From Candidatus Gastranaerophilales bacterium (GTDB lineage Bacteria; Cyanobacteriota; Vampirovibrionia; Gastranaerophilales; Gastranaerophilaceae), in the NCBI GenBank assembly GCA_944324425.1, contig CALUWE010000002.1:124001-188000 (forward strand): a stretch of 64,000 bases of DNA, given 5' to 3'. This document shows, piece after piece, positions 183-34,069 of this stretch. The notes beneath the pieces are model-generated. The model had not been told where the DNA came from. It was given only the letters and a program-made list of their open reading frames with translations, and did no database searches. Numbering within the stretch: position 1 is the stretch's first letter; the number at the start of each line of letters is the position of its first letter. Made by a program: the position numbers and the translations under genes.

Positions 183-1742
183 TTGTCTCTAAAAGACAGA
201 TTAAATGCCAATCACAACAACAATAACGATCGCATCCACAAGGAAGATGCGAACGCTTACTTGAACTACTCCGTTACCCCGCTGAATGATGAACTAAGAG
301 GCCTAAAAGACCAGTTACATGTTCTTTTGATTGAAAAAGTAAATACAACCCCAAACTGGTCAAATTTTTCTGATGACGAACAAAAAAACTTAATCAGACA
401 ATTTATCGAATTTCAAATTGCAAGCAACTTTAGGCAAGTTCCTATTAATAAATCCGAAAAAGAACGCCTGATAAAAGAAATTATACAAGATACAAAAGGT
501 TTTGGCCCGCTGGACCCGTTGCTTGAGGACCCCGGAATAAGCGATATTTTGGTAAACGGCGCAAAGAATGTTTATATAGAAAAAAACGGCAAACTTTATA
601 AAACATCGGTTACTTTTAAAGATAACGACCACTTAAAAAATATCATTGAGCGTATTGTTTCAAAAGTGGGAAGAAGAATAGACGAAAAATCTCCGATGGT
701 GGATGCCAGATTAGCTGATGGCAGCCGTGTGAACGCAATTATTCCGCCGCTTGCAATAGACGGGCCTTCATTATCAATCAGGCGTTTTAAAAAGGATGCG
801 GGAACAATTGAGGCCCTTTTGAGATGGGGTTCAATGTCAACGGAAATTGCAGATGTTCTACAAGCTGCAGTCAGAGCGAGATGCAACATTATTATTTCAG
901 GCGGAACGGGCGCCGGTAAAACAACATTATTAAACAGTTTATCGGCAAGAATACCATCCGGAGAAAGAATTATTACAATAGAAGATTCAGCCGAACTTTG
1001 TTTGCAGCAAGAGCATGTTGTAAGGCTTGAAACAAGACCCAAAAACATCGAGGGCGAAGGTGAAATTTCAACAAGGGACTTGGTTATAAACTCCCTCCGT
1101 ATGAGACCCGACAGGATAGTAATCGGTGAATGCCGTGGCGCGGAAACACTTGATATGCTTCAAGCCATGAACACAGGCCACGACGGCTCTTTAACCACAC
1201 TTCACGCCAACTCTCCAAGAGATGCGCTCTCAAGGTTAGAAACAATGGTTTTATACGCAGGTGTTGACCTTCCGAGTAAAAACATAAAGCAGCAAATATC
1301 ATCAGCCATCAATATAATTGTTCAAACATCAAGACTTCAAGACGGTTCAAGAAAAGTAACAAGGGTATCTGAAATCACAGGTATGGAAGAATCCGTTATT
1401 ACAATGCAGGATATTTTTGTTTGGAAACAAACCGGCATGAGCGACAGCGCCGTTATAGGAACCCATGTTTCAACCGGTGTCCGTCCCGAATTTATGAAAA
1501 AAATTGAGCGAATCGGCATTGAAATAAATTCAAGAATTTTTGATGCAAACTACAAACATACATACATAATAAAATCCGCGCCGAGCGAAAATGTTGTTGT
1601 AAAACAAAAATCGCCAATGGTTGACAAAAAAGACACACAAAATATTGAATCAGTTAGAAAAACAATGGTTTCAAGAAGCGAACAGGAAGCCGATATTTTA
1701 AGAAGGCTGCACAACAAAAATGGACATAGAATTGACACTTAA
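183..1742 (+). CDS. cpaF: Tad/Flp pilus assembly ATPase CpaF (TadA)
   Basis: Hexameric secretion ATPase that powers Tad (type IVc) pilus assembly at the inner membrane. Of 519 residues, the N-terminal ~90 are a variable helical region. A conserved block around residues 105-125 (GFGPLDPLLEDPGISDILVN) is typical of the GspE/VirB11-like family. Walker A GGTGAGKTT lies near residue 240 and the Walker B/Asp-box region MRPDRIVIGE near 306. The His box GHDGSLTTLHANSP follows. The start is TTG at 183, with GGAG at 171-174 about 8 bases upstream. It touches the preceding stop and overlaps tadB by 23 bases, so this is one translationally coupled operon. The ~100 C-terminal residues after the ATPase core are longer than in most CpaF proteins and Ser/Lys-rich. 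Confidence 0.95.
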   Translation: MSLKDRLNANHNNNNDRIHKEDANAYLNYSVTPLNDELRGLKDQLHVLLIEKVNTTPNWSNFSDDEQKNLIRQFIEFQIASNFRQVPINKSEKERLIKEIIQDTKGFGPLDPLLEDPGISDILVNGAKNVYIEKNGKLYKTSVTFKDNDHLKNIIERIVSKVGRRIDEKSPMVDARLADGSRVNAIIPPLAIDGPSLSIRRFKKDAGTIEALLRWGSMSTEIADVLQAAVRARCNIIISGGTGAGKTTLLNSLSARIPSGERIITIEDSAELCLQQEHVVRLETRPKNIEGEGEISTRDLVINSLRMRPDRIVIGECRGAETLDMLQAMNTGHDGSLTTLHANSPRDALSRLETMVLYAGVDLPSKNIKQQISSAINIIVQTSRLQDGSRKVTRVSEITGMEESVITMQDIFVWKQTGMSDSAVIGTHVSTGVRPEFMKKIERIGIEINSRIFDANYKHTYIIKSAPSENVVVKQKSPMVDKKDTQNIESVRKTMVSRSEQEADILRRLHNKNGHRIDT

Positions 1743-2694
1743 AATCGGTATCTGCATTTTTAGCAGCATCTTGACGTATATATGCGTTATCAATTTGTGC
1801 GATTATTTTCACGTTGATGAAAAAGAAGTTGTTAAAAGGCTTATTGCTGTTAAAAACCACGATTTTAAAGGCAATATGCCAAGCAACAACAATTTTGCAA
1901 CTGCAAAGTCCAACTTCCAGTTTAAAGTTTTTTCAAAAATATTTAAAAACATAAAAATTGTTGAAAAAATAAAAGCACTGTTAGAGCAGGCCGACATCCC
2001 CTGGCAGGTTGATACTTTTGTCATTGTAAGTATAGTTTTAGGGTTAATTCCGCTTGTCCTTGCTTTAATTTTTACGCCTCTTTTAATCATTGTTTGCGTT
2101 GCAGGGCTTTTTGGACCGTATTTATATGCAAAATATAAAATTAAAAAAAGAACGGCGCTTTTCACTCAGCAATTGCCGGATGCGCTTGATTTATTGTGTA
2201 ACGCATTGAGGGCAGGGCACTCTTTGTTTTCCGCTTTTGAAGTTATTGTAAATGAAATGCCAAACCCCATAAGCAAGGTTTTTAAAATTTTAACCGATGA
2301 AATTGCCTTGGGGATTGACGCAAGAGATGCAATGAGATCATTGCAAAGAATGGTGCCCGGTTCTGTTGACTTAAGATTTTTTACAACGGTTGTAATTCTA
2401 CAAAGGGAAATCGGCGGTAACTTAATTAAATTGTTGGAAATTTTAGCAGCAACAATCAGAGAAAGATTTAAAATGATAGGCCAATTAAAAGCACAAACAA
2501 TGCAGGCCAGATTATCAGGGATAATAGTTTCTGTTATACCGCCCATAATCTGCGTTGTGTTGTTTATAATGGCGCCTGAGTATATGGACTATCTCATACA
2601 TCACCTCTGGGGTAAAATTGCGCTTGGAGTTTCTGCTGTTTTAATGCTTATAGGATATATTGTAATTAATAAGATAACGGATATTGAAATATAA
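1720..2694 (+). CDS. tadB: Tad pilus inner-membrane platform protein TadB
   Basis: A 324-residue polytopic protein of the type II secretion F (T2SF) family, the platform on which CpaF acts. An N-terminal membrane segment (about residues 7-25) is followed by a Lys-rich cytoplasmic stretch, a long hydrophobic hairpin (about 101-139), then the T2SF domain opening with LPDALDLLCNALRAGHSL near residue 150. Two C-terminal membrane helices end the protein. It overlaps cpaF by 23 bases at its 5' end and tadC by one base (ATAATG) at its 3' end. Order and overlaps match the usual tadA-tadB-tadC layout. Confidence 0.93.
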   Translation: MDIELTLKIGICIFSSILTYICVINLCDYFHVDEKEVVKRLIAVKNHDFKGNMPSNNNFATAKSNFQFKVFSKIFKNIKIVEKIKALLEQADIPWQVDTFVIVSIVLGLIPLVLALIFTPLLIIVCVAGLFGPYLYAKYKIKKRTALFTQQLPDALDLLCNALRAGHSLFSAFEVIVNEMPNPISKVFKILTDEIALGIDARDAMRSLQRMVPGSVDLRFFTTVVILQREIGGNLIKLLEILAATIRERFKMIGQLKAQTMQARLSGIIVSVIPPIICVVLFIMAPEYMDYLIHHLWGKIALGVSAVLMLIGYIVINKITDIEI

Positions 2695-3647
2695 TGTTTG
2701 ATATTATAATGAAAATTTGTATATTACTTGTAATGACCTTTATGACAGGGTTGCTTGTTTATACAATTTTTAACCGAGACAGTAATTATCTTCTTGAAAG
2801 ATTAAAAAGAGGCCATAGCGTCGTTAAAAGAAAAAGTATCTTAGACGACTTATTGGAAGTAATTAAGCCCTTTACCGTTGTAAACATGAAAAACAGTAAA
2901 AATACGGGCTCTACAAAACAAATGTTAATACAGTTAGGTCTTCCCGCCAACGAAAACGATATAATGGATTTTGAGAACAGAAGAATGTTAAAGCTTATTA
3001 TTGTTTTAATGATAAGTACAATTTTGACATTCGTCATTCTTCCTTTTTTGGAAGCCGGAAAAGATACAGGCTCAATTAAACTTATGGTCGGAACCGTTTT
3101 AATTTGTCTGCCTTCCTTTATGGCATACAAAAGCCCGACTTGGAACTTAAATGCTAAAATTAAAAAGAAAGAAAAAGCTTTTGAAAAATTCTTCCCTGAT
3201 GCAATTGATCTTCTTTGTGTCTGTGTGGAAGCGGGATTAAGCATAGACAGCGCCATTGAAAGGGTAGGAAGAGAATTTACCAATTTCTCGCCAGAAGTCG
3301 GCGCGGAATTTAACAGAATTGCAAAAGACATTTTATCGGGCGTTTCCAAACAAGATGCCCTAAGGGGTTTATCAGAAAGGGTTCACAGCAAAGATATTCA
3401 ATCTTTTGTTGCAATAATCATTCAGGCCGATAAAATGGGTGCCAGCATATCATCTTCCCTTGCAATTTCGGCTGACAGTTTAAGAACAAAAAGAAAACAA
3501 AGGTTAGAAGCCCTTGTATCATCTGCCAGCACAAAAATGACGATTCCTTTGGTACTTTTTCTTTTACCTGCAACATTTGCCGTTATTTTAACACCTGCAA
3601 TTATTCAGGTTGTGGAAAGCTTGGGTAAAATGAATGGCTTCCAATAA
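2694..3647 (+). CDS. tadC: Tad pilus inner-membrane platform protein TadC
   Basis: A 317-residue second T2SF-family platform protein of the Tad system, partner of TadB. It has an N-terminal transmembrane helix (about residues 5-25), a membrane pair near 100-145, the T2SF motif FFPDAIDLLCVCVEAGLSI near 165-185, and a final hydrophobic helix before the C-terminus. The ATG overlaps the tadB stop by one base. The 3' end overlaps ribD by 14 bases. No pilin (flp), prepilin peptidase or secretin gene follows, so the rest of the locus must lie to the left or elsewhere. Confidence 0.93.
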   Translation: MFDIIMKICILLVMTFMTGLLVYTIFNRDSNYLLERLKRGHSVVKRKSILDDLLEVIKPFTVVNMKNSKNTGSTKQMLIQLGLPANENDIMDFENRRMLKLIIVLMISTILTFVILPFLEAGKDTGSIKLMVGTVLICLPSFMAYKSPTWNLNAKIKKKEKAFEKFFPDAIDLLCVCVEAGLSIDSAIERVGREFTNFSPEVGAEFNRIAKDILSGVSKQDALRGLSERVHSKDIQSFVAIIIQADKMGASISSSLAISADSLRTKRKQRLEALVSSASTKMTIPLVLFLLPATFAVILTPAIIQVVESLGKMNGFQ

Positions 3648-26869: not shown

Positions 26870-26895
26870 AAAGCCCCTTATTAAAGGGGCTTTTT
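26870..26895 (+). terminator. Rho-independent terminator
   Basis: 10-bp perfect stem AAAGCCCCTT/AAGGGGCTTT (26870-26879 with 26884-26893), 4-base loop and T run, directly after the LysM-like gene. It also faces the end of the pseudopilin cluster on the other strand. Confidence 0.9.
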
Positions 26896-26904
26896 AGTTT
26901 TATT

Positions 26905-29436
26905 TTATTGGTAATGCCAATTAATCATAACATAGCCGTTTTGGCCGTCGCCGCCCTTACCGGGGCCTAATTCACTGTTATATCCGCCTCCGCCGCCGCC
27001 TGAGCCTGCAGAACCCAATTTTTCACCGGTTGCTGAAGAATATGAAGGAGCAATAAATTTTGCTGTTTGTCCGTCAGAGCTTTTCATTGTACAGTTGCCG
27101 TAATAATTATCAACATAAAAAGGTACAAAACCTCCGCCCGAAGTTGTTGTAACCGTATTTATAATCATAGTGCCTTTAAATGAATCGTTGTGGGACATAT
27201 CAGCTAAAAGGCCGTCATTATTACCCGCAAAAAGCCCTCCGCAACCGCCTTTTGTACCAAGTCCCGAAAAACCGCCAAGGCCGCCCATATAAGAATGTTG
27301 ATTATTTACAATGGATTTCGAATAAAAACCTAAATATACTAAATCTGAAGTATTTAAACCATATTGGCTTGATGTAAGTGATTTTGTAATGTCATTAATA
27401 TTAACGGGCGACATAGTTTCATACGCATTAAAGCCGCCGATTTTATCATCAATGTTATTTGCGGGTACAATTTCACCGGTATTCAGTCCTGCACTGTTTG
27501 AATTTAGCTCAAAGTAAGGAGATCTTCTGGGGTTGTTATTATCAAAAAATGCATATCTGCTTACAATCCTTTTGTATTCATAGCTTGAATTAAAAATATC
27601 AACATTTTGATTTTGGTCTCTTAATTCAAAAACAATATTGTTATCCAACAGATTTTCTATATTATCAAAAGTACCGTTTTTTCCTGAAATTACAAGAGGA
27701 TAATTTCTTGCACTGTTTGCAGGAAGAGGCATAGGAGCATAATTTGTAAAATCATTTCCCCCTATGGGCAAAGTCAATTGAGCATTTGTATTTATATTTC
27801 CGCCATATCCGCCCGCACCGCCTATAACAAGCAAAACTAATTTATCGGCACCATCATATATTGCGGTACATGCACCGCCTGCACCGTTTTGCCCTTTTGT
27901 GGGAGTATAATCATAAGCGCCGCTGTTTGCATCCAGCTGACCGTTCTTGCCTGCTGTACCTCCTGCACCGCCAGCACCTACAACAATTGTGTATCTTGAA
28001 CCTGGAACCACCGGAAAATTATTTATTTTTATTGCGGTACCGCCCACACCGCCTGAGCCTGTACCTCCTGGGTTATCCAAATATGCGGTCAGTTTGCCGT
28101 ATTGATTATTCATATCTTTTTCAGCAGGCGTTGATCTTATTTTATCATGAGTGCCTTTGCCGTCGTCAACTTGGTTGTTTAAAGGTATATAACAAGAATC
28201 AACCGCATTTTCACAAACAATCATAGCGCCTTCGCCTCTGCCGCCGGCACCGTATTTGCCGAGAATATTAATTTTAGCGCCTTCGCCGCCTTTAACAAGA
28301 CAGCCGTTTGTTACTTTACCGCTTCTTGGAATAGATGATGTTTTACCTTCAACGGAAGGTATAAATGAAAAATTCGAAAGCTTTGCAAGTGAAGTTACAA
28401 GCTTGGAATCATTCGGCAGCACGGTAATATCCGTTGCACCTTCGGCTTCAACTTCCGGACTGACGGATGTTGTCCAAACAAATTTATCATCACTGTCTCC
28501 CAAACTTGTTTTAAACGCTTGAATTCTTCTGCCGACCTTAGCATCAGCAAGAAATATTCCGGCTTTGCTTCTTGAATCTTGCGTATTTATATGCGCAGAT
28601 CCCGCAAAACCTTGTTCAAGAGTTAATTGATGTGAAGATTCAAAAAATACGCCAAAGCCTTCATATTGTTGAATTCCTTCATATAAGCTATGATATGTGG
28701 AACCATACCCTGTATTTGCACAGATAATATCCCCGTCGTTGCACATTTGCGCGCCCTGAGCCGTTATTTCGCCCAGTTTTGTTTCATCACCAAAGCTTAT
28801 TTTTAATGAAGAATCCGAATTGGTTGTTTCCGTTAAAAAGCTTGGTTTATAGTCAAGAAAAATGAAATCGCGCGGCAATTCATGGTTTAAAATTGCATTA
28901 CCGGAAGAACCGCCTTTTCCTGCATAAACATTGTTATCAGCAGTAACGGTATCTCTCTGATGTCCGTCTTCCCCGCTTGAAACAAGTGCATCAATAACGA
29001 TTTTTTTAATTCTTGAATGCAGCAATTGAAGCGGTGCTGAAGCTCCGCTCATATATTCTTTTTTTACTACTGTACCGCCTGCGGCTCCGCCTCCGCCTCC
29101 GCCGCCTGCAACAAGAGTCAAGTCAATTTTATGAACATCACTGGGAACAACAAATTCATATCTTTGACATTTTCCGCTTGTATCTTTAACAATCGTTCGC
29201 GTTCCGTTAATGCTCAAAGATGTAACATAGCAAGGAAAAATTGGGTTTTCCGTACTTTGCTGTTGAAAAAGAAAAACTGCTCCGTTACCCCTTTTTGCAA
29301 AATTTGCCATTTTATTCTTTTTTGTAATAGCAGGAAACGCCAACAGCAAAATAATCGACAATATCAAAAGTGAAATTAAAACTTCTGCAAGCGAAAAAGC
29401 TTTTTTTCTGTTTATTTTATTTATATTAAAAATCAT
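26905..29436 (-). CDS. Giant glycine-rich pseudopilin 3, 843 aa
   Basis: A prepilin-type leader (KKAFSLAEVLISLLILSII) at residues ~11-35 is followed by a very large glycine-rich ectodomain. Just after the pilin helix come a conserved Cys pair (CYVTSL … GKCQRYEFVVP) and the block LTLVAGGGGGGGAAGG. The C-terminus repeats the family signature GSAGSGGGGGGYNSELGPGK and ends YVMINWHYQ. Ordinary type IV pilins are ~150 residues, so this is a surface-exposed adhesin-like or fibre-tip candidate. AGAGGTAAAATG gives the start. Last of three tandem paralogues, and the most diverged in its middle region. Confidence 0.88.
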   Translation of the reverse strand: MIFNINKINRKKAFSLAEVLISLLILSIILLLAFPAITKKNKMANFAKRGNGAVFLFQQQSTENPIFPCYVTSLSINGTRTIVKDTSGKCQRYEFVVPSDVHKIDLTLVAGGGGGGGAAGGTVVKKEYMSGASAPLQLLHSRIKKIVIDALVSSGEDGHQRDTVTADNNVYAGKGGSSGNAILNHELPRDFIFLDYKPSFLTETTNSDSSLKISFGDETKLGEITAQGAQMCNDGDIICANTGYGSTYHSLYEGIQQYEGFGVFFESSHQLTLEQGFAGSAHINTQDSRSKAGIFLADAKVGRRIQAFKTSLGDSDDKFVWTTSVSPEVEAEGATDITVLPNDSKLVTSLAKLSNFSFIPSVEGKTSSIPRSGKVTNGCLVKGGEGAKINILGKYGAGGRGEGAMIVCENAVDSCYIPLNNQVDDGKGTHDKIRSTPAEKDMNNQYGKLTAYLDNPGGTGSGGVGGTAIKINNFPVVPGSRYTIVVGAGGAGGTAGKNGQLDANSGAYDYTPTKGQNGAGGACTAIYDGADKLVLLVIGGAGGYGGNINTNAQLTLPIGGNDFTNYAPMPLPANSARNYPLVISGKNGTFDNIENLLDNNIVFELRDQNQNVDIFNSSYEYKRIVSRYAFFDNNNPRRSPYFELNSNSAGLNTGEIVPANNIDDKIGGFNAYETMSPVNINDITKSLTSSQYGLNTSDLVYLGFYSKSIVNNQHSYMGGLGGFSGLGTKGGCGGLFAGNNDGLLADMSHNDSFKGTMIINTVTTTSGGGFVPFYVDNYYGNCTMKSSDGQTAKFIAPSYSSATGEKLGSAGSGGGGGGYNSELGPGKGGDGQNGYVMINWHYQ

Positions 29437-29454
29437 TTTACCTCTTTGCTATTA

Positions 29455-31563
29455 TTACTTGCGCCATTCAATCATCAAATAACCGTCTTGGCCGTCGCCG
29501 CCTCTGCCTGAGCCTGCCAAAATATTATAGCCTCCGCCGCCGCCGCCTGAGCCGGCAGAACCAAACTTGGATGAGTTTGGTGTCGGAGCAACAAATTCAG
29601 CTGTTGTGCCGTTTGGAGACATTGAATTGCAATTTTCATAATATGCGGAAATAGGATATAATCTTCTTTCCACAACAAACGTATTTACAAGAAAATCCTT
29701 ATTTGAAGTAGATGTTCTGCCATCGAAATTGCCCAAGAAATACCCGCCGCAACCTGCCTTTTTGCTTACTCCGGAAAAACCTCCGAGGCCGCCGACATAA
29801 GCACCTAAATTATCTTTCAAATTTCTGTAATAAAAACCGTTATAAACATTGTTTATATTTGAACCGTTATAAGAAATTTGCTCATTAACTGCATTATTCA
29901 AATCGAAAGCTGAATAACCGCCCGTTCTTGAATCAATATTTATAGAATTGGTATTAACCTTGTAATTTAAAGTATAAAAAGGTTCTACACTCATATATGG
30001 ATATTGAATGCTCACCATGGACAAATTTGCGTTAGATTCAACATTCGGAAGAGAACTTCCGTCATTTACACTTGATTTCGATGCAACTTTTTGATCCAAA
30101 ACAATATTTGTCGTTAAATTGTTAATTCCTGAAATAACTTTCGGGAAAAATCTGCCCGAAGCTCCGATTTGTCCGGTATATGCGCTGCCGTTATACACTC
30201 TGCCTCCTTGTCCGGGAGCGCCGCCGTTAACCATATAAATTAATTGTCCGTTTTCATTATAGATAGCGGTTGAAACACCGCCTACACCATTTTCGCCTTG
30301 TTTTGGATTTTGCGAAGCAAATGCTCCGGAACCGCCTTTACCGCCTTTACCTACTCTTATTATATATTTTTGTCCGGGCAATACATCAAGACCCATAATT
30401 TTTACGCCTGTTCCGCCGCCTCCGCCGCCGCCGGTGCCGCCCGGATATTCAATGGTATATTCGGCTTCAGCATGAGCACTTTCACCCTCTGTTGCCGCCT
30501 TATTTTGCGTTAAGGTCAAATCGCTTATATTGTTACAAACAAATTTTTTGCATTTAAGCTTCATGGATGCACCGACTCCGCCTGACCCGTAAGAGGAAGT
30601 TCCGTTAACAATTCCGCCGATTCCGCCGACAAAAACCATGTCTTTTCCGTATGTAAAAAATGAAAGCGATGCATTTTTACTGTCGCTGCGGCCGTTTTCA
30701 CCTTTGATGCTGTCAATAATAAACTGTGAAGTTATTCCGCATGCTGATACACCCGCAGGGCCCATATCATAATTTATGCCGCCTAAAGCACAATGTCCTT
30801 TATATCCGTCATCGGTTTTTCTTATACCGTACTCAATTTTTCTGGAACCGTCAAAAACACCGTTTTTTGAATTTTCAACTTCAAAAGAAGATGTTTCACC
30901 GGCAGCAATTCTAATTCTTCCTTGAGGAGCATTGGTTTGGGAAGTGGAGAGATTATTTGAAAAATTAGAGCCTCTGGTATATGCATCAGGCAAGGGAAAT
31001 TCAACAATTGCCATTGAAGAATTACCGCCTTTTCCGCTGCACACATAATTGCCGCCGCCATTACAATCTTTATTTATAGGAAAACCGTTTTGCCCTTTTG
31101 AAACAAGTGATTTTATTTTCACTTCTTTTAAAATGTCAGGTATAAATCCGTCAGCATTAACATGTGCTATTTGAGCATCATTCGTAGACAGTGTTTTTGT
31201 TAATGTTTTCCCGCCTGCGGCTCCGCCTCCGCCGCCGCCGCCTGCAACAAGAGTTAAATTAACTTTGTACACGTCCTTCGGAACAACAAATTGATATTCC
31301 GAGCATTCGCGTGTGCTTGTGTATTTTTCGGTAAAAGATGAATAATTTGAAATTTCGGTTACAAAACACACATTATCATCTTGCACATTATTTCCTGCGC
31401 TGTATGTATACACAACACCGTCTGACACCCTATCAGACACTTTTTTTGTTATAATCGGCGCCAAGGCAACCATTATTAATGATAAAATTACAAGAGAAAT
31501 TAAAACCTCCACCAATGAAAAGGCATTTGTTTTTTTATTTATTTTATTTATATTAAAAACCAT
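29455..31563 (-). CDS. Giant glycine-rich pseudopilin 2, 702 aa
   Basis: Same architecture as its neighbours: leader NAFSLVEVLISLVILSLIMV, conserved Cys pair (CFVTEISN … RECSEYQFVVP), LTLVAGGGGGGGAAGG near residue 105-120, mid-protein YIIRVGKGGKGGSG, CGGYFLGNFDG and NCNSMSPNGTTAEFVAP. It ends GSAGSGGGGGGYNILAGSGR … YLMIEWRK. It is separated from the upstream copy by 12 bases and from the downstream one by 18, with an AGAGGTAAAATG translation start like copy 3. Likely exported and processed by a prepilin peptidase. Confidence 0.88.
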   Translation of the reverse strand: MVFNINKINKKTNAFSLVEVLISLVILSLIMVALAPIITKKVSDRVSDGVVYTYSAGNNVQDDNVCFVTEISNYSSFTEKYTSTRECSEYQFVVPKDVYKVNLTLVAGGGGGGGAAGGKTLTKTLSTNDAQIAHVNADGFIPDILKEVKIKSLVSKGQNGFPINKDCNGGGNYVCSGKGGNSSMAIVEFPLPDAYTRGSNFSNNLSTSQTNAPQGRIRIAAGETSSFEVENSKNGVFDGSRKIEYGIRKTDDGYKGHCALGGINYDMGPAGVSACGITSQFIIDSIKGENGRSDSKNASLSFFTYGKDMVFVGGIGGIVNGTSSYGSGGVGASMKLKCKKFVCNNISDLTLTQNKAATEGESAHAEAEYTIEYPGGTGGGGGGGTGVKIMGLDVLPGQKYIIRVGKGGKGGSGAFASQNPKQGENGVGGVSTAIYNENGQLIYMVNGGAPGQGGRVYNGSAYTGQIGASGRFFPKVISGINNLTTNIVLDQKVASKSSVNDGSSLPNVESNANLSMVSIQYPYMSVEPFYTLNYKVNTNSINIDSRTGGYSAFDLNNAVNEQISYNGSNINNVYNGFYYRNLKDNLGAYVGGLGGFSGVSKKAGCGGYFLGNFDGRTSTSNKDFLVNTFVVERRLYPISAYYENCNSMSPNGTTAEFVAPTPNSSKFGSAGSGGGGGGYNILAGSGRGGDGQDGYLMIEWRK

Positions 31564-31575
31564 TTTACCTCTTTA

Positions 31576-33738
31576 TTATCTGCGCCATTCAATCATTAAA
31601 TAACCGTCTTGGCCATCGCCGCCTCTGCCTGAGCCTGCCAGAATATTATAGCCTCCGCCGCCGCCGCCTGAGCCTGCAGAACCAAACTCAGAGTAATGCG
31701 GCCTCGGTGCAACAAACTGCACGGTTGCACCGTCAGGAGATTTTGTTGAACAGCCTTCATAAAAATCAGTAATTTTATATGAATTGTTTCCGAGCATAAT
31801 GGTATTTATTCTGGCTTGCCTTGTATCCGAATCTCCGGGCAATGAACCGTCATCATCATCTCTGCCGTCAAAATTACCCATAAAGTATCCGCCGCAGGCA
31901 GCTTTGCCTCCAAGTCCGTTAAAACCTCCAAGGCCTCCGATATAAGCGCCTGTATTATTTACAAGACTTCTGTAATAAAGGCCGTCGTACTGGCCGCCGC
32001 TTACTTGAACGGTTTTTATTTCAAAGCCTGAAAAACCGCCTGTTTTATTTGCAACTTCACCGTTAAAATTAGCTATATTATTTGATTCGTTTCTTGTTCT
32101 TTTGTTTAAAGTTTTATATGGTTCATCTTGAAATAGGTTATATTGAATTCTGCGTGTTTGCATATTAATTTTATCGCCGCTTATATTTTTAAATTCAGTA
32201 TTAAAATTACCCTGCTGAAGTTCACTTATTACTTTTCCATCAACGGCAATTTCATTAAACAAAGTATTGCTTGAAGAAATAAGCATTTTATAATTTCTGC
32301 CGGATAAACCGGTTTTTCCCGTATATGCACTGCCGTCATACACCTTGCCGCCTTGTCCCGGAGCACCGCCGTTAACCATAAGAAGAAGATTTCCGCCTTG
32401 GTCATATATTGCGGTAGATGTACCGCCAATACCGTTCTTACCGTCATCCGGATCATTTGACGCAACACCGGCCGCGCCGCCTGCGCCGCCTTTACCAACC
32501 ACTATTGTATAAGTTTGTCCCGGAACAACCGTAAAATTGACTATTCTGACCGCAGAACCGCCTGCGCCCCCACCGCCTGCGCCACCCGGACGCTCTGTTT
32601 CAATAACTATCGAGCTATTGCCTATTTTGCCGACTTTATCCGAGTTTAGCGCAGCAAACAACATTCCGGAATAATCACAGGTTTCAATGTTTGATGAAAA
32701 CCATTTCGGATCATCACAATTTGTAACTTGAAATGATTGTCCTTCACCGCCTGAACCGTAATTACCCAAGGCATGAGCGTTTTTACCGCCTGCGCCGCCT
32801 TGAAATACCTGATTAAGAGGGAACTCTTGATCTGCATATTTGAAAAAGGTGCCGTATGCTCCGTCAATGCTTTGTATGATGCTGCTTGAGGGAATTCGGC
32901 AAATTTGTTCAAAATTGGTTTCTTCAGATTTCACTTGGGTTCCCCCGATATTACACAGCATTTGATATCCGTCGGTCAAGTAATTAATGCCGTATGTAAC
33001 CGTTTGTTCAGGTCTGTTATCACCCCAAGACATTTTTAAAAAAGCAGCGTCCGCAGCATTTGAAACTTCATATTCCGTATTTACGGGAGTTTGAACCGAA
33101 AGTGTATTTACAAAACCGGCACCTCTGATATATTCATCAGGGATATAAAAATCACTTATTGCAGGCGAAGATTTACCGCCTTTTCCTGCGCAGCGGGGTG
33201 CATTATTTCCGATGTCAGGCAAATATTGACAAACTTCGGAAGGAATAAAAGAAAAATACGAACCGTTTTTGCCTCTTGCCGTCATATATATCATTTTTAC
33301 GCTTTTTACAATGTCTGAAATAAAATTTTTCGTATAATTGCTTTCAACAGCGCCGGTTGACAAAGATGAGGTTTCCGTAAACCCGCCGGCAGCACCGCCG
33401 CCTCCGCCGCCGCCCGCAACAAGAGTTAAATTAACCCTGTCAACACCTTGGGGCACTTGAAATTTATATTCCGTGCAATCGGGAGAATATGAATATGTTT
33501 CAGGATAATCGCTGTCCGCAAAGTCCACACTTGCCAAAAAGCAGCTGTTTTGAATTGACAGCTGGCTTGGGCCGTTATACGTGTATACAATGCCATAATC
33601 TTTCCTTGGCATCATTCTTCTTGTAAAAACGGGGGCCAATGCTACAAAAATTAATGAAACAATCAAAATGGACATCAAAATTTCAATTAGAGAAAATGCC
33701 ATTTTATTGGAGTTTGTTTTTATATTTTTTCTTATCAT
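31576..33738 (-). CDS. Giant glycine-rich pseudopilin 1, 720 aa
   Basis: First gene of the tandem trio and the one behind the promoter at 33785-33813. Leader KMAFSLIEILMSILIVSLIF, then RRMMPRKDYG, the Cys pair (CFLASVDF … SPDCTEYKFQVP) and LTLVAGGGGGGGAAGG. Repeated glycine blocks follow (GGAGGGGAGGSA, GKGGAGGAAG), with CGGYFMGNFDGRDD, GCSTKSPDGATVQFVAP, and the C-terminal GSAGSGGGGGGYNILAGSGR … YLMIEWRR. It is closest to copy 2, especially at the C-terminus. The exact start is uncertain: the ATG at 33738 has only a weak GGA upstream. Confidence 0.88.
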   Translation of the reverse strand: MIRKNIKTNSNKMAFSLIEILMSILIVSLIFVALAPVFTRRMMPRKDYGIVYTYNGPSQLSIQNSCFLASVDFADSDYPETYSYSPDCTEYKFQVPQGVDRVNLTLVAGGGGGGGAAGGFTETSSLSTGAVESNYTKNFISDIVKSVKMIYMTARGKNGSYFSFIPSEVCQYLPDIGNNAPRCAGKGGKSSPAISDFYIPDEYIRGAGFVNTLSVQTPVNTEYEVSNAADAAFLKMSWGDNRPEQTVTYGINYLTDGYQMLCNIGGTQVKSEETNFEQICRIPSSSIIQSIDGAYGTFFKYADQEFPLNQVFQGGAGGKNAHALGNYGSGGEGQSFQVTNCDDPKWFSSNIETCDYSGMLFAALNSDKVGKIGNSSIVIETERPGGAGGGGAGGSAVRIVNFTVVPGQTYTIVVGKGGAGGAAGVASNDPDDGKNGIGGTSTAIYDQGGNLLLMVNGGAPGQGGKVYDGSAYTGKTGLSGRNYKMLISSSNTLFNEIAVDGKVISELQQGNFNTEFKNISGDKINMQTRRIQYNLFQDEPYKTLNKRTRNESNNIANFNGEVANKTGGFSGFEIKTVQVSGGQYDGLYYRSLVNNTGAYIGGLGGFNGLGGKAACGGYFMGNFDGRDDDDGSLPGDSDTRQARINTIMLGNNSYKITDFYEGCSTKSPDGATVQFVAPRPHYSEFGSAGSGGGGGGYNILAGSGRGGDGQDGYLMIEWRR

Positions 33739-33784: not shown

Positions 33785-33813
33785 AGTATAACGTATTTTA
33801 TAGTGTCTTTCAA
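33785..33813 (-). promoter_or_regulatory. Sigma-70 promoter of the pseudopilin cluster
   Basis: Minus-strand -35 TTGAAA (33808-33813), exactly 17 bases, -10 TATACT (33785-33790), about 47 bases upstream of the first pseudopilin ATG. It is one of the two best-matching promoters seen in the window. Confidence 0.7.
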
Positions 33814-34069
33814 TAAAGTTAAGAACCAAAAATATCAAAAAAGCCATATGCACACTACAAAAGGATTTCCGCCTTAATTTTTCCTACATATTTCAACACA
33901 AAATTTTAATTGTTAAGCTTTGTTAAGCATATAGTATATAAAAAAGCAATATTTTTTAGATAACAAACTTTATATAAGTACAAGAGAGAAATTAAGAGAG
34001 AAAAAACAAAAAACTAAATTTACCACAAAAAAGTTACCACCAATACCAAAAGAGGACACGAAAAGATTT

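Follow-up and report, generated by a model that had tools for sequence, protein, structure and literature searches.

Three tandem genes for giant prepilin-like TG-domain proteins in Gastranaerophilales: candidate receptor-binding subunits of a type IV pilus

A cassette of three giant prepilin-like genes

We analysed a stretch of 64,000 nt (the window; contig CALUWE010000002.1, positions 124,001 to 188,000) from the 1.84 Mb, 30-contig assembly of a Candidatus Gastranaerophilales bacterium (GCA_944324425.1). Three tandem open reading frames lie on its minus strand, separated by 12 nt (A/B) and 18 nt (B/C) (Table 1). They had been described in a first-pass annotation as three giant glycine-rich pseudopilins of 702-843 residues, and the reading frames and their lengths proved to be real. 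The size, given there as five times that of the usual pilin, holds against a classic pilin of ~150 residues, whereas the other prepilin-type proteins read in the same genome have about 220-330. Alignment of the three proteins, proposed earlier as a check, confirmed that the leader, the glycine blocks and the cysteines already singled out are common to A, B and C, as are the LTLVAGGGGGGGAAGG sequence after the helix and the C-terminal GSAGSGGGGGGY block. Four of these cysteines were invariant in 22/22 relatives, and invariant cysteines in pairs are in keeping with export to an oxidising environment. Identity to C, the longest protein, was 38% for B and 34% for A, far above chance; in a search of the genome, B was 46% identical to A, and mutual matches among the three reached E values down to 1e-151.

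Table 1. Features of the cassette and its surroundings, in window positions
Feature	Position	Strand	Remarks
CpaF/TadA-type ATPase and two T2SSF proteins	183-3647		secretin gene just beyond the window edge
Neighbouring gene, 667 aa	24862-26865		long coiled-coil-like stretch; without known family; conserved
Terminator-like stem-loop 3' of gene C	26870-26893		T-run better on the plus strand
Gene C, paralogue, 843 aa	26905-29436	-	single orthologous clade genus-wide
B/C junction repeat	29403-29687	-	end of B, spacer, start of C
Gene B, paralogue, 702 aa	29455-31563	-	
A/B junction repeat	31530-31808	-	end of A, spacer, start of B
Gene A, giant prepilin-like TG-domain protein, 720 aa	31576-33738	-	first in operon
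Gene A, TG core part 4	31579-31767	-	residues 658-720; invariant Cys663; GSAGSGGGGGGY...W end
Gene A, TG core part 3	31849-31959	-	residues 594-630; invariant Cys615
Gene A, insert 2	31960-32334	-	residues 469-593; length and sequence variable
Gene A, TG core part 2	32335-32583	-	residues 386-468
Gene A, insert 1	32581-33387	-	residues 118-386; folds alone, TG-like, predicted nested domain (structure, no sequence support)
Gene A, TG core part 1	33385-33603	-	residues 46-118; TNF-like strands and first Gly stretch
Gene A, leader and hydrophobic helix	33613-33738	-	residues 1-42
Promoter-like site TTGAAA-17-TATACT	33785-33813	-	10/12 sigma-70-like match, best upstream of gene A
AT-rich 53-nt element	33934-33986	-	upstream of gene A
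Neighbouring gene, 576 aa	34136-35866		HENAH motif; without known family; conserved

One strong promoter had been proposed to drive all three genes. The best upstream site is indeed kept upstream of gene A in most alignable genus members, but promoter-like sites in the region were no commoner than in shuffled sequence (25 versus 19.9, sd 5.1). Further upstream, and preceded by pyrimidine-rich sequence, lies an AT-rich element of 53 nt (CTCTTGTACTTATATAAAGT...TATTGCTTTTTTATATAC). Most genus genomes carry one to three further copies of this element (for example at G000:C21:16432, L112), which are intergenic, beside unrelated genes and sometimes between convergent genes. An exact 18-mer of the element was found in genus genomes, and the reversed 18-mer, used as a control, was found in none of them. 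A recombination site, a small RNA or a repeat are candidate roles; a search of Rfam with the region upstream of gene A returned no credible match.

In G001 and G008 a tyrosine recombinase of 183 residues, with a catalytic domain only and of FimB-like size, is encoded directly upstream of the cassette (L047:292-843 and L053:13469-14020); it is absent beside the cassette of the window. This gene prompted us to consider an invertible promoter resembling the fim switch. The recombinase has relatives dispersed across the family, which counts against such a switch, and a search for long perfect inverted repeats around the promoter found none; the candidate was rejected.

Ectodomain, leader and pilus machinery

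The Pfam profile Gly_rich_2 (PF21722; gathering score 24.3 bits) was matched by the products of gene A (39.4 bits) and gene C (28.5 bits), that of gene B not being listed on its own. When the poorly conserved stretches of the gene A product were removed, the remaining core of 257 residues matched positions 5-226 of the 226 profile positions (E 7e-15, 56.1 bits). This end-to-end match indicates, at the level of sequence, that the ectodomain as a whole is a single Gly_rich_2 domain, split by two large inserts of variable length and sequence (~220-340 and ~100-210 residues). Across 22 proteins the core segments were near-constant in length, while insert 1 varied from 222 to 343 and insert 2 from 102 to 214 residues; most core columns had a conservation of 0.6-0.9, and most insert columns one of 0.15-0.5. 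Sequence searches of the PDB with a single protein, the alignment or the insert-free core gave nothing meaningful, the matches of the core to glycine linkers of antibody fragments being dismissed, and a Pfam search with insert 1 gave nothing consistent.

Structure prediction of one ectodomain, also proposed earlier, was performed on the gene A product with AlphaFold and a 22-row alignment (pLDDT 83.9, pTM 0.77). Searching the PDB with Foldseek alone gave no match at E 0.001 or better, and among viral models it returned glycine-rich proteins, with E around 3e-4 but low TM-scores. The Foldseek candidates were then compared with the gene A model by VIA-align, and Z values of 16.4 for the Pam3 tail fibre, 12.6 for the Bxb1 tail tip, 9.2 for LTK and 9.0 for ALK were obtained, the rest being at or below 3.6. 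On this second aligner and the Pfam match, the ectodomain is predicted to have the TG fold (TNF-like plus glycine-rich), with the match of the outer domain extending over both subdomains. The earlier view of the ectodomain as an invention of this lineage was therefore abandoned, since it is an expanded form of a Gly_rich_2/TG-fold domain that phage tail tips and the animal receptors ALK and LTK also have.

Insert 1 of gene A (~270 residues) was also folded alone (pLDDT 86.6, pTM 0.81). VIA-align matched it more weakly, with Z values of 9.0 (Pam3), 8.5 (Bxb1), 5.8 (ALK) and 5.5 (LTK), followed by 4.3 for the next candidate, where values below 8 can reflect a common arrangement. A legume-type or galectin lectin was rejected for this insert, as Z was only 2-4.3, below the TG matches. 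Comparison of the profiles of insert 1 and the core detected no significant sequence likeness. From its predicted structure, insert 1 appears to be a TG-like domain nested inside a TG domain.

The tail fibre gp24 of cyanophage Pam3 (PDB 7ypx, 7yfw; PMC9608196; 26% identity over 230 residues) resembles the predicted gene A ectodomain in having a TNF-like domain followed by a glycine-rich lattice, with a conserved glycine stem and variable outer loops in both. In the phage fibre, which is a trimer, this domain pair recognises the receptor through a conserved stem and a hypervariable tip, and its likeness to ALK has been noted (PMC9608196). Unlike the cassette proteins, gp24 is a phage protein of ~280 residues that docks to the baseplate via an N-terminal helical bundle, has a dedicated chaperone, and lacks a prepilin leader and large inserts. 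The tail tip of mycobacteriophage Bxb1 (PDB 9d93 chain Qa; rmsd 3.8, 32% identity over 208 residues) has the same fold and is again a virion protein without a pilin leader. The TG domains of LTK and ALK (PDB 7nx1, 7nx3) share the TNF-like and glycine-rich arrangement, but belong to animal receptor tyrosine kinases, in which they form the ligand-binding part of a membrane receptor. The first-pass annotation had regarded alignment of the ectodomain to a phage-tail protein of different function as evidence against its proposal; a match to phage tail tips was found, but the shared receptor-binding role fits an adhesin.

At the N-terminus, F+1, S+2, E+5 and P+22 were invariant in 22/22 proteins whose identity to gene A is otherwise 30-54%, and the residue at -1 was Ala in 13, Gly in seven and Ser in two. 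Leader peptides of prepilins end in Gly or Ala (PMC9934059). The class III signal peptide of type IV pilins (G/A at -1, F+1, E+5) is thus present, with P22 in the hydrophobic helix of all 22. The Pfam N_methyl profile was matched above its cut-off by the 843- and 702-residue proteins and weakly, below the cut-off, by the 720-residue gene A product. The long alpha-1 helix under a globular pilin head is missing from the AlphaFold prediction: the gene A model has a single helix (residues 17-42) that runs straight into the TG strands at residue 47, and basic residues directly follow the hydrophobic stretch.

Tip adhesins are known among minor pilins that carry additional binding modules, and other minor pilins form tip complexes (PMC8179133, PMC9934059). 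Among the modular pilins (sensu Raynaud et al. 2021) of Streptococcus sanguinis, PilB mediates adhesion and PilC binds glycans (PMC8179133, PMC9934059). These proteins resemble those of the cassette in joining a prepilin leader to a bulky binding module, and the extra module of the cassette proteins (Gly_rich_2/TG fold) is likewise not specific to pilus biology. However, PilB and PilC keep a small pilin module between the helix and the binding module (vWA or lectin), whereas in the gene A model the helix leads directly into the TG domain, and the cassette has three paralogues in tandem. The parts are known and their combination is new: a pilin-type leader with a TG domain, three genes in tandem and possibly nested domains.

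The genome encodes a prepilin peptidase (PilD), a cluster of a PilB-like ATPase with an MshEN domain, PilC, a secretin and a PilP-like protein, and two PilT-family ATPases scoring above the curated cut-off. This gene set makes a retractile T4a-type pilus likely, the secretin and PilC scores placing a T2SS about as close as a T4P. A second ATPase/T2SSF set, Tad-like by its look, lies near the start of the window (Table 1).

The missing pilin head distinguishes these proteins from previously described modular pilins, and a simple membrane anchor is conceivable. The proteins would then be anchored at the surface or in the periplasm, using the pilin-like signal for export and anchoring only and never entering a filament, a reading favoured by the short helix, the basic residues right after it, the very large ectodomain and the lack of linkage to pilus genes. 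Nevertheless, P+22 and E+5 matter for filament packing and assembly in type IV pilins; both are invariant together with F+1, and a plain anchor needs neither. As the genome also has a full T4a-type machine, we consider the anchor reading unlikely.

Distribution and divergence of the cassette

The count of homologues in related genomes gave strong matches in seven of the eight other genus members in a sample of 98 relatives, the exception being G004, which is 85% complete and in 250 contigs. A few other genera in the sample gave weak, mostly N-terminal matches. In a profile search of 239 family genomes, 23 gave a match; these belong to 4 of 41 genera, a count that is too low for the remoter forms. 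In the contig scan the alignment as query gave matches and the single protein gave none. All named relatives were Candidatus Gastranaerophilales MAGs.

All three genes were present in 7/7 complete cassettes (G000, G001, G002, G003, G005, G007 and G008); the cassette of G006, where the contig ends inside the second gene, was left out of this count. The cassette was intact even where its context differs: G000, G001 and G008 share parts of one, G002, G003, G005 and G006 have another gene set, and G007 a third. The tested neighbours in the window are housekeeping genes (enolase, aminotransferase, phosphomutase), with no pilus genes adjoining. The cassette could conceivably be the remnant of a phage or prophage, made of tail fibre genes that gained prepilin leaders by chance, as the ectodomain has a phage-tail-like fold and weak PHROG matches (phrog_754, minor tail protein, E 1.5e-5). 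However, neither a tblastn search of 50,697 phage records nor the viral contigs yielded a relative, and a phage origin was rejected on both; nor does the cassette lie in a phage or prophage gene cluster, its tested neighbours being housekeeping, and it is conserved through the genus with constrained leaders. We regard such an origin as highly improbable.

Three large pilins of differing lengths were also found in tandem in other family genera (L058, L059, L062 and L066, also L061 and L074). Most of these end in GxVxIxW, and some have smaller pilins alongside. The homology of the cassette proteins to these remoter triples was restricted to the N-terminal 100-150 residues. In another genus, a remote giant glycine-rich pilin with a leader and Gly_rich_2 (L054:14778-17135) has, after the leader and ahead of its glycine-rich part, a weak match to Lcl_C that falls short of the cut-off. 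Lcl_C is linked to sugar binding, which would fit inserts carrying binding functions. The proposal of a lineage-specific family stands in so far as the cassette occurs in one genus, with more distant giant pilins rich in glycine elsewhere in the family; it does not extend to the Gly_rich_2/TG-fold ectodomain.

Over their last 38 codons, A and B were identical in DNA sequence in G001 and G008 (100%) and 93% identical in the window, while the same stretch was 77-83% identical between the orthologues of these three genomes. The stretch running from the end of A across the spacer into the start of B resembles the stretch from the end of B across the next spacer into the start of C, over 300 nt at 93% identity in G001 and 92% in G008. 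In contrast, the first insert regions of the paralogues were only 16-31% identical at the protein level (window, G001 and G008). Near-identical junctions together with divergent insert regions argue that gene conversion or recombination homogenises the gene junctions as the central parts of the genes diverge. In a phylogenetic tree C formed one clade (100/99), and A and B of the same genome paired in several species, with long branches making some joins uncertain; this pairing fits repeated conversion or renewed A/B duplication. The suggested growth of the family by duplication was thus borne out, with conversion apparently ongoing.

The three genes, together in every complete cassette and with C as an old, separate clade, could instead encode structural minor pilins that prime the pilus or a T2SS-like pseudopilus, equivalent to PilV/W/X or GspI/J/K, with adhesion as a side effect. 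The runs of three large pilins beside other small pilins in other family genera would suit this role. The strongly varying inserts, on the other hand, are expected of binding rather than priming parts, and a likeness to the remoter triples that is restricted to the N-terminal region leaves their equivalence unproven. A purely priming role therefore seems quite improbable to us.

A predicted receptor-binding role at the pilus tip

We consider it probable on balance that the products of the three genes are large receptor-binding proteins of pilin type, displayed on a type IV pilus, likely at or near its tip, and the cassette proteins are probably adhesins. We infer the steps as follows. Each protein would be made as a prepilin and cut by the PilD of the genome, and its hydrophobic helix would insert it into a type IV pilus. 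A position at or near the tip is most likely because, at about 75 kDa each, the subunits are too bulky for the shaft. Outside the cell, the TNF-like sandwich and glycine-rich lattice of the TG domain would form a rigid stem presenting the long variable inserts, which, including the nested TG-like domain, would meet a ligand carried by the gut surface, by food particles or by other microbes. The gene number, which is constant at three, and the tendency of TNF-like domains to form trimers suggest, by analogy, that A, B and C probably form a tip complex together.

The first-pass annotation had proposed a surface fibre or adhesin assembled by a pilin-type pathway. The constrained leader and the receptor-binding fold suit the adhesin, while the proteins more probably serve as tip or minor subunits of an ordinary pilus than as the building blocks of a fibre. 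A more detailed picture can be offered as a tentative, somewhat doubtful extension: a heterotrimeric pilus tip, in which each of the three giant subunits has a TG domain and, nested in the first loop of that domain, a second TG-like one, would bind host or microbial surfaces for an uncultured gut lineage, the gene junctions being subject to gene conversion while the inserts diverge, as a convergent or shared-origin counterpart of phage tips and of ALK and LTK.

Gastranaerophilales, which are related to cyanobacteria, are common in the gut and mostly uncultured. Among the papers searched, none combined Gastranaerophilales with glycine-rich pilins. The cassette proteins are concrete candidates for adhesins with which these bacteria may hold on to surfaces. 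By the predicted structures, the TG fold, familiar from phage tips and animal receptors, would also occur on a pilus-type subunit of a bacterium, and the putative design of one TG domain nested in another is directly open to structural work.
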